Assembly: GCA_017409025.1 (NCBI GenBank)
Contig: JAFQTN010000015.1
Span: forward strand, 1-44,042
Origin: Bacilli bacterium
Lineage (GTDB): Bacteria; Bacillota_I; Bacilli_A; RF39; UBA660
Direction: 5' to 3'
DNA length: 44,042 nt
The notes under the pieces are model-generated. The model saw only the letters and a list, made by a program, of their open reading frames with translations, ran no database searches and was not told the origin of the DNA. A program made the position numbers and the translations under genes. Of this stretch, positions 18,776 to 28,495 are shown one piece after another; position 1 is the stretch's first letter; every line of letters begins with the position of its first letter.

Positions 18776-18878
18776 CCTTATTTTATTGTTTAAGACTCGC
18801 CATTATGGTGGATTTTAATCACTTTTTACCTATTTCTGTGCGGTTGAGTAATCAACTCGAGGTCTTGTAAACAGTTAT
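18776..18878 (-). promoter_or_regulatory. L21 leader RNA (candidate autoregulatory 5' UTR)
   Basis: The transcript between promoter and rplU can fold: AAGA.CTCG near its 5' end pairs with CGAGTCTT near its 3' end, and GTTGA/TCAAC makes an inner hairpin. A conserved leader at this place is known for Firmicutes rplU operons; the match here is by position and pairing only. Confidence 0.6.
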
Positions 18879-26750: not shown

Positions 26751-27914
26751 TTATTTATCTTCAATGATATCTATTCCGGGTAGTGATTTTCCACTTAGAT
26801 ATTCTAATGTAGCTCCGCCACCTGTTGATATATGGAAGAATGCATCTTTATATCCTAGTAGATTTACAGATGCGGCTGAATCTCCACCGCCTACTAATGT
26901 TTTTATATTATTTTCTTTTATACATTTATATATTGCATCAGTACCTTTAGAGAAACCTTCTTTTTCAAAAACACCCATTGGCCCGTTAATAACCACTCTT
27001 TTAGCTTCTTTTAGAATTTTAGTAAATAATTCTATAGTTTTTGGTCCAATATCATATCCAACATCATTTTTTGAGATATTATTTATATTTTTTATTTCGT
27101 TATTACTGGTAACGATATCTACCGGTAATATTATTTTATCTTTATATTCATTTAATATTTTTTTACAAAATTCAATATTATCATCATCTACGATGGATGA
27201 CCCAATATTTATATCCATTGATTTTAAGAATGTAAAACACATTCCTCCACCTATTAAAATTTTATCACATTTATCTATTAAATTTTCTATTACTAATGTT
27301 TTATCGCTTATCTTTTTTCCACCCATTATTACGATAAACGGATGTGTATTTTCATTCATTATTTCATCCAATTTTGTCGTTTCTTTTTCCATAAGGAAGC
27401 CAATTCCATTTGGTAATAATTTAGAAATTCCAACATTTGAAGCATGAGATCTATGAGATGTACCATAGGCATCATTTATATAAACATCCCCAAGGGATGC
27501 CCAATATGTACTAAGAGTTTCATCACAACTGCTTTCTTTTTTACCTTCAATATCTTCATATCTAGTATTTTCTATTATCAGAACTTCTCCTTCTTTTAAA
27601 TTAGATATTTTATCTTCTAGTGATTTACCACTTGTTTCTTCACTAAAATATACATTTGTATCTAGTATTTTTTTTAATTCTAAGTATACTGGATACAAAG
27701 TATTATCTTTTTTATCTTCTTCTGTTTTTATTTTTCCTAAATGGGATAAAATTATCACTTTAGCATTATTATCAATTAAATAATTTATTGTTTCTAAACT
27801 TTCTTTTATTCTTGTATTATCTGTTATTATACCATTTTCTATTGGGACATTTAAATCACATCTTAAGATTACTCTTTTTCCTTGATATTCATAATCTTTT
27901 ATAGTTTTTTTCAC
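26751..27914 (-). CDS. pgk: Phosphoglycerate kinase
   Basis: 387 residues from GTG 27914, which sits six bases after AGGTG; the longer frame lacks a site and adds a hydrophobic stretch foreign to the family. Family motifs are in order: VILRCDLNVPI, IILSHLGK, NDAYGTSHRSHAS, VIMGGKKISDK, NGPMGVFEKEGF, GGGDSAASV and STGGGATLEYLSG. It makes ATP and 3-phosphoglycerate in glycolysis. The gene stands alone here, apart from gap/tpi/gpm/eno. It has its own consensus promoter and terminator. Confidence 0.96.
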   Translation of the reverse strand: MKKTIKDYEYQGKRVILRCDLNVPIENGIITDNTRIKESLETINYLIDNNAKVIILSHLGKIKTEEDKKDNTLYPVYLELKKILDTNVYFSEETSGKSLEDKISNLKEGEVLIIENTRYEDIEGKKESSCDETLSTYWASLGDVYINDAYGTSHRSHASNVGISKLLPNGIGFLMEKETTKLDEIMNENTHPFIVIMGGKKISDKTLVIENLIDKCDKILIGGGMCFTFLKSMDINIGSSIVDDDNIEFCKKILNEYKDKIILPVDIVTSNNEIKNINNISKNDVGYDIGPKTIELFTKILKEAKRVVINGPMGVFEKEGFSKGTDAIYKCIKENNIKTLVGGGDSAASVNLLGYKDAFFHISTGGGATLEYLSGKSLPGIDIIEDK

Positions 27915-27991: not shown

Positions 27992-28029
27992 GAAAACAAA
28001 AATCAATTGTTCTGATAAAACAATTTGAT
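27992..28029 (-). terminator. Terminator of the unidentified RNA
   Basis: ATCAAATTGTT / AACAATTGAT stem with one bulged A (28019-28029 with 28002-28011), followed by TTTTTGTTTTC on the minus strand. Confidence 0.72.
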
Positions 28030-28460
28030 CCGAGTTTTATGAATGACTTCATCGTTATAACTCTTTTTTATATATAAATCATATGCTATGATAATTAAAG
28101 ATTACTTAAAATCTTCGGCAGAATTAACAAATAATTCTAACTCAGCGATTAATAATTATCTAGTAATACAAGATACATATCATCAAAAGAATTTAACATT
28201 TTTGGCTAAACATTATCAGTGTTTAGTTGAGTCTCTTATCTTTTGAGTTTTCTTTCTCAATAACAATTGTATATACTTAGTGCAGATAAGACTCCTACTT
28301 TTTAGGAGAATTCATGCTAGAATATCTAACTTATATCAATTATATTATCATAATATAGCTTCTTTAATAAGTATTAAAAAATATTAAACCAAGCTATAAC
28401 TATGACGTATGTTTTTGCATACACATATAATTAATATATTTAGATATCCTCTATCTAAGC
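27993..28460 (-). ncRNA. Candidate stand-alone structured RNA of about 470 nt, unidentified
   Basis: No convincing ORF lies here on either strand. A consensus-like promoter reads into it and a stem followed by a T run ends it, before the separate pgk promoter. Many helices can form: CTCCTA/TAGGAG (28292-28308), CTAAACA/TGTTTAG (28206-28226), GAGTCTTATC with GATAAG.ACTC (28230-28294, two-base bulge), TATAGCTT/AAGCTATA (28354-28398), and TCATAGTTATA with TATAACGATGA (28395-28405 with 28049-28059) that would join 5' and 3' parts, competing with the previous helix for four bases. I looked for RNase P, tmRNA and SRP signatures and found none. Ornate RNAs such as ROOL, GOLLD or raiA cannot be excluded. 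Confidence 0.6.
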
Positions 28461-28466
28461 AATTAT

Positions 28467-28495
28467 ATTGTATAATATTTTTTTTCTTATGTCAA
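28467..28495 (-). promoter_or_regulatory. Promoter of the unidentified RNA
   Basis: TTGACA (28495-28490), 17-base spacer, TACAAT (28472-28467) on the minus strand; the start point would be near 28460. It is 50 bases after the terminator of the upstream operon. Confidence 0.75.

Follow-up and report, generated by a model that had tools for sequence, protein, structure and literature searches.

Just upstream of pgk, on the minus strand of a genome from an uncultured gut bacterium, lies a gene without evident coding capacity. It raises the questions of what RNA it specifies, whether that RNA is new, and whether it has anything to do with pgk. The gene is complete in the window, by which we mean the whole stretch of DNA that was analysed (44,042 nucleotides).

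The transcription unit

Positions 28461-27997 of the minus strand make up a compact transcription unit that is non-coding and has both a promoter and an intrinsic terminator of its own, in agreement with a first-pass annotation that had described a complete stand-alone structured RNA of about 470 nt. The promoter, TTGACA-N17-TACAAT, had been called near-consensus; it matches the consensus at 11 of 12 positions, and a near-consensus promoter is found at the corresponding place in the RNA loci of relatives. The expected terminator is present at 28030-27997 as an A+T-rich hairpin with a T tail, which is kept in relatives but was missed by an automated terminator scan because of its A+T-rich stem. 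Neither strand contains a convincing open reading frame, as had also been noted: the longest stop-free stretch in the standard code is 32 codons in the sense and 61 codons in the antisense direction, and an antisense frame of 99 amino acids appears only when UGA is taken to encode Trp. The 478-nt strand has a minimum free energy of -113.8 kcal/mol versus -82.0 ± 5.2 kcal/mol for shuffled sequences (z -6.2; 0 of 100 shuffles as low), in a single-sequence fold that misses the pseudoknotted helix P1, the kissing loop and the palindrome pairing described below. The features of the unit and of its neighbour are as follows.

28467-28495, minus strand: RNA promoter (-35 TTGACA at 28495-28490, 17-nt spacer, -10 TACAAT at 28472-28467)
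28455-28461, minus strand: P1 5' strand, UGCUUAG, at or adjoining the inferred transcript start near 28460
28310-28454, minus strand: variable 5' domain from alignment and fold, with hairpins that differ by lineage
28206-28297, minus strand: conserved core, PGK RNA (RF03040; 96.2 bits, model positions 1-92)
28285-28290, minus strand: P2 5' strand, CUUAUC (Rfam structure line; covariation by permutation)
28274-28280, minus strand: P1 3' strand, CUAAGUA, inside P2 and giving a putative P1/P2 pseudoknot; unpaired in the Rfam model
28263-28270, minus strand: self-complementary ACAAUUGU, where homodimers are predicted to form; left unpaired by the Rfam model
28243-28260, minus strand: P3 hairpin, UUGAG-AAAGAAAA-CUCAA, the most conserved element
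28235-28240, minus strand: P2 3' strand, GAUAAG (Rfam alignment; covariation by permutation)
28206-28226, minus strand: P4 hairpin, CUAAACA-CUGAUAA-UGUUUAG, with loop 28219-28213 predicted to kiss the terminator loop
28038-28205, minus strand: variable linker, long in the window's genome (L001) compared with L002 and g18
28031-28037, minus strand: AAACUCG, a conserved AAACUMG motif directly 5' of the terminator hairpin, also in relatives
27997-28030, minus strand: intrinsic terminator hairpin GATCAAATTGTTTTATCAGAACAATTGATTTTTG, with a loop, UUAUCAG (28018-28012), that complements the P4 loop
27931-27959, minus strand: separate pgk promoter, TTGACA-N17-TATAAT (12 of 12)
26751-27914, minus strand: neighbouring gene pgk, GTG start (Pfam PGK match on the L140 orthologue)

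Elsewhere in the window, a ribosomal protein L21 leader (RF00559) occupies 18783-18855 of the minus strand.

Family assignment

An Rfam scan of the window identified RF03040 (PGK RNA) at 28297-28206 with 96.2 bits (E = 3e-12; gathering cut-off 50.8 bits). The match spans all 92 model positions, and P2, P3 and P4 agree with the Rfam structure line. It is the sole Rfam match above threshold in the RNA region and the only RF03040 copy in the genome; OLE, GOLLD and ROOL gave no match in the region in the same scan. The low-scoring matches there to mir-982 and snoZ103 are due to chance. The locus had been put forward as an unassigned RNA and a possible new class, with an Rfam covariance search set beforehand as the refuting test; the significant match over the central 92 nt means that the core is already known and that the new-class claim is not upheld. 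By sequence homology, the RNA is a member of a catalogued, uncharacterised family. The open literature searched yielded no description of RF03040 or PGK RNA as an Rfam family; the source paper of the family is reportedly that of Weinberg et al. from 2017. The earlier statement that the RNA is neither RNase P nor tmRNA holds and extends to 6S RNA: the same genome carries clear, separate genes for all three (277, 159 and 70 bits, respectively), and the Rfam scan finds no match to any of them in the RNA region.

In a sample of 385 genomes from the order, RF03040 matched 73 at a threshold of 0.001, and a custom model (R1) matched 90 at the looser threshold of 0.01. In a class-wide sample, no RF03040 match was found outside the window's family. 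A pattern scan of genome contigs contributed further loci, and 10 chance matches in phyla unrelated to the window's (Omnitrophota, Prochlorococcus and others) among the matches listed were removed by eye. In all, 118 related loci were collected, with the window as L001. Most genomes with a PGK RNA have a single copy. The full RNA is about 270-470 nt long across relatives, with about 465 nt in the window and about 275 nt in the g18 relatives, so that the 92-nt Rfam model represents about one fifth of the window RNA.

Genomic neighbourhood

Downstream sequence of at least 1 kb was available for 106 loci. A tblastn search with the window's Pgk located pgk downstream in three of these (L001, L002 and L140) and in no other of the 118 loci. 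All three come from the window's own lineage, and in each the RNA closely precedes pgk in the same orientation. The other loci adjoin genes for EF-P, MurG, a sigma factor, SpoIVA, a PPIase, tgt, a sulfatase, rplL (L7/L12), FtsK/SpoIIIE or Fic, and the flanking genes vary by genus. The downstream gene is antisense to the RNA in 17 of 111 loci. Promoters and terminators accompany the RNA across these differing loci, and in the window the RNA ends at its own terminator, before a separate promoter for pgk at 27959-27931 that is perfect (12 of 12), as had been annotated. Because 103 of the 106 loci lack pgk, 17 of 111 face an antisense neighbour and pgk has its own promoter, the cis-regulatory type given to the family is unsupported. 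The comparative data thus appear to contradict the Rfam label Cis-reg, despite the pgk arrangement in the window, and they support the earlier view of a stand-alone RNA that is not a pgk leader.

The pgk promoter has a feature of its own. An inverted repeat, AAGTG...CACTT (27978-27951), overlaps its -35 element, and the relative L140 carries a perfect one, TAAGTGCAGTA-CAAA-TATTGCACTTA. This repeat is a possible repressor operator of pgk.

Core helices and a predicted pseudoknot

P1 joins the nucleotides that immediately follow the promoter to a CUAAG-type sequence inside P2. The mean best-helix score for 31 non-redundant RNAs is 7.56, compared with 5.16 ± 0.22 when the 5' ends are permuted, and none of 20,000 permutations scored as high (p < 5e-5). 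Examples of the paired strands are UUGCUUAG/CUAAGCAA in L013, UUGUCUAG/CUAGACAA in L014 and L024, UAUCUUAG/CUAAGAUA in L015 and CAUCUUGG/CCAAGAUG in L111. As P1 crosses P2, the two would form a pseudoknot. Among the helices of the first-pass annotation, the one that joins the 5' end to the interior is therefore real (P1), whereas the local helices make up only a portion of the fold.

P2 was misaligned in the MAFFT alignment of the core, so that RNAalifold recovered P3 and P4 alone; a permutation test applied to P2 gave a score of 6.10 versus 5.39 ± 0.17 (p about 1e-4). Double-sided changes are seen in 10 of the 11 predicted pairs of P3 and P4, and the A-rich loop of P3 is invariant. The window RNA has the same core as RF03040 at all 92 positions and the same P2, P3 and P4, but the Rfam entry covers the core only. 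The full RNA adds P1, a terminator hairpin predicted to kiss P4 and a self-complementary element, and covariation supports all three of these features outside the Rfam structure.

Predicted contact between P4 and the terminator

In 89 of 91 PGK-type RNAs, a T-tailed hairpin carries in its loop 6-7 nt that are exactly complementary to the 7-nt loop of P4, whereas control 7-mers of similar composition are found in 1-3 of 91. Both loops have changed together in L058 (CUGACAA/UUGUCAG), L063 (CUGACA/UGUCAG), L067 (CUAGUAA/UUACUAG) and L068 (CUGGUAA/UUACCAG). These comparisons support a kissing interaction of 7 bp that joins the loop of P4 to that of the terminator and would tie the 3' end to the core. 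The two RNAs without the complement, L062 and L070, are diverged, paralogue-like copies with the palindrome UAUGAUCAUA and a terminator loop (CUUGUCA) that is not matched to the loop of P4. The genome of L070 (G056) also has a normal copy, L036.

A self-complementary element

In a test anchored on the P3 loop, 81 of 90 RNAs have a self-complementary stretch of at least 8 nt (8-16 nt) at a fixed distance from P3, compared with 22.6% of control intervals. The element is situated between P1 and P3, and in nearly all RNAs its centre falls 10-12 nt on the 5' side of the P3 loop. Thirteen different self-complementary versions occur at this one place, ten of them Watson-Crick and three containing G-U pairs. 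The central hexamers include CAAUUG, CACGUG, UGAUCA, CGAUCG, CGCGCG, GAAUUC, UACGUA, CAUAUG, UGUACA and UGCGCA, and G-U pairs are needed for full-length self-complementarity in L119 (AAUGGUAUAUCGUU), L037 (GUGAUAUAUUGC) and L015/L026 (UAUAAUUGUA). L022 and L061 were mis-anchored in the test yet contain ACAATTGT. In L035/L039, the element has a C-A mismatch, and the PGK-type RNAs L067 and L068 have no clean self-complement. In the window RNA, the palindrome ACAAUUGU is short and A+U-rich.

A poorly resolved tree, from which the palindrome columns had been left out, requires at least 16 changes of the element, most of them into another self-complementary sequence. Replacement is also seen among close relatives (L024 within one genus, L048 and L057). 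Within a single chain, neighbouring bases at the centre could not pair with each other; the covariation therefore points to pairing between two molecules, and the G-U versions speak for a symmetry of RNA rather than of DNA. The same covariation argument for homo-oligomers has been accepted for the L9.3 bridge of OLE and the L21a bridge of GOLLD (PMC12286853). Dimers of the isolated segments are predicted at -8.8 to -21.1 kcal/mol, compared with 0 to -3.0 kcal/mol for the monomers. The element therefore predicts homodimerisation of the RNA.

Divergent relatives and unusual copies

Twenty-seven loci, mostly from the pattern scan (among the matches listed), are divergent, with a GAGAAAG...CUGAUAAU core and covariation in P1. 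Most fall below the Rfam cut-off, and several adjoin rplJ/rplL. The palindrome is present in one of the 27; an evident kissing terminator was found in none, and the terminator loops differ. Dimerisation would for these reasons not be universal, and both the P4-terminator kiss and the palindrome seem to belong to the PGK group in the strict sense.

Some loci contain more than one copy. Two genomes of one genus have tandem PGK RNAs about 315 nt apart (L041 and L047). On an uncultured Tenericutes contig, an 8-kb stretch holds an OLE RNA (221 bits) together with two PGK RNAs that are separated by 1.2 kb (L119, 2443-7927).

Discussion

Judged from comparative sequence, the window RNA is probably a full-length PGK RNA, free-standing and constitutive, with a P1/P2 pseudoknot, a kissing contact to its terminator and a homodimeric structural role. 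The near-consensus promoter would drive high-level constitutive transcription of an RNA of about 465 nt. Its 5' end would fold back and pair inside the core to form P1, crossing P2, and the P4 loop would kiss the terminator loop of the same RNA, which may hold or protect the 3' end. The self-complementary stretch would then pair two RNA molecules, giving a stable homodimeric particle or scaffold, either of RNA only or in an RNA-protein complex as for OLE. A constitutive, dimeric structural RNA is the cellular role that we favour.

A free-standing gene, present as a single copy in most genomes and with an invariant, A-rich P3 loop, could also encode a trans-acting regulator that pairs with mRNAs or titrates a protein through the single-stranded P3 loop or the variable domains, dimerisation being incidental. 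We regard this as a minority possibility, given that internal pairing and self-complementarity are what is most strongly constrained and that the variable domains are not kept as seed regions. Control of pgk in cis, in which the P4-terminator kiss would switch termination and hence read-through into pgk, accords with the Rfam type and with the position of the RNA in the window, L002 and L140. It is very unlikely and is contradicted as a general role by the 103 loci without a downstream pgk, the 17 that face an antisense gene and the perfect pgk promoter that follows the terminator.

Palindromic hexamers are typical of DNA-binding sites, and the element might accordingly be a dyad in the DNA, such as a protein or restriction site. 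This is less probable still, because 13 different sequences occupy the same position in the RNA and the versions in L119, L037 and L015/L026 need G-U pairs, which DNA dyads do not use. A diverged RNase P, tmRNA or 6S RNA, which the size and the strong promoter might have suggested, is refuted by the separate strong matches to these RNAs in the genome and by RF03040 as the only Rfam match above threshold here.

The homodimeric structural RNA that we prefer resembles OLE (RF01071), GOLLD and ROOL in being a free-standing, ornate bacterial RNA, and its self-complementary covariation predicts a homo-oligomer as in OLE L9.3 and GOLLD L21a (PMC12286853), the multimer here being a prediction from sequence. 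PGK RNA differs from these families in having no sequence match to them, a smaller size and another fold, and OLE is a separate gene in one relative (L119). The dimerisation site of HIV-1 (DIS) and other palindromic sites likewise have a self-complement of at least 6 nt as the predicted dimer contact (PMC7357161). In contrast to HIV-1, PGK RNA is a cellular non-coding RNA with its element in a junction; as the element is often 12-14 nt long, two copies may pair directly as a duplex instead of through kissing loops.

What is new, as far as the literature searched tells, is the architecture of the full-length RNA, its independence of pgk and the prediction of a homodimer. For the family, we lean towards a free-standing, pseudoknotted RNA of gut Bacilli that does not regulate pgk, forms homodimers through an evolving palindrome and has its terminator locked by a kissing contact; it would add a further class of natural RNA-only dimers, of which Rfam holds only the core. 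Natural homodimeric RNAs are rare, and here comparative sequence gives a predicted dimer contact in more than ten versions. A contact between an RNA core and its own terminator is unusual. The full-length boundaries are now available for structural work. The analysis also corrects the filing of the family as a regulator of a metabolic gene, so that looking for the ligand of a pgk riboswitch would be the wrong course.
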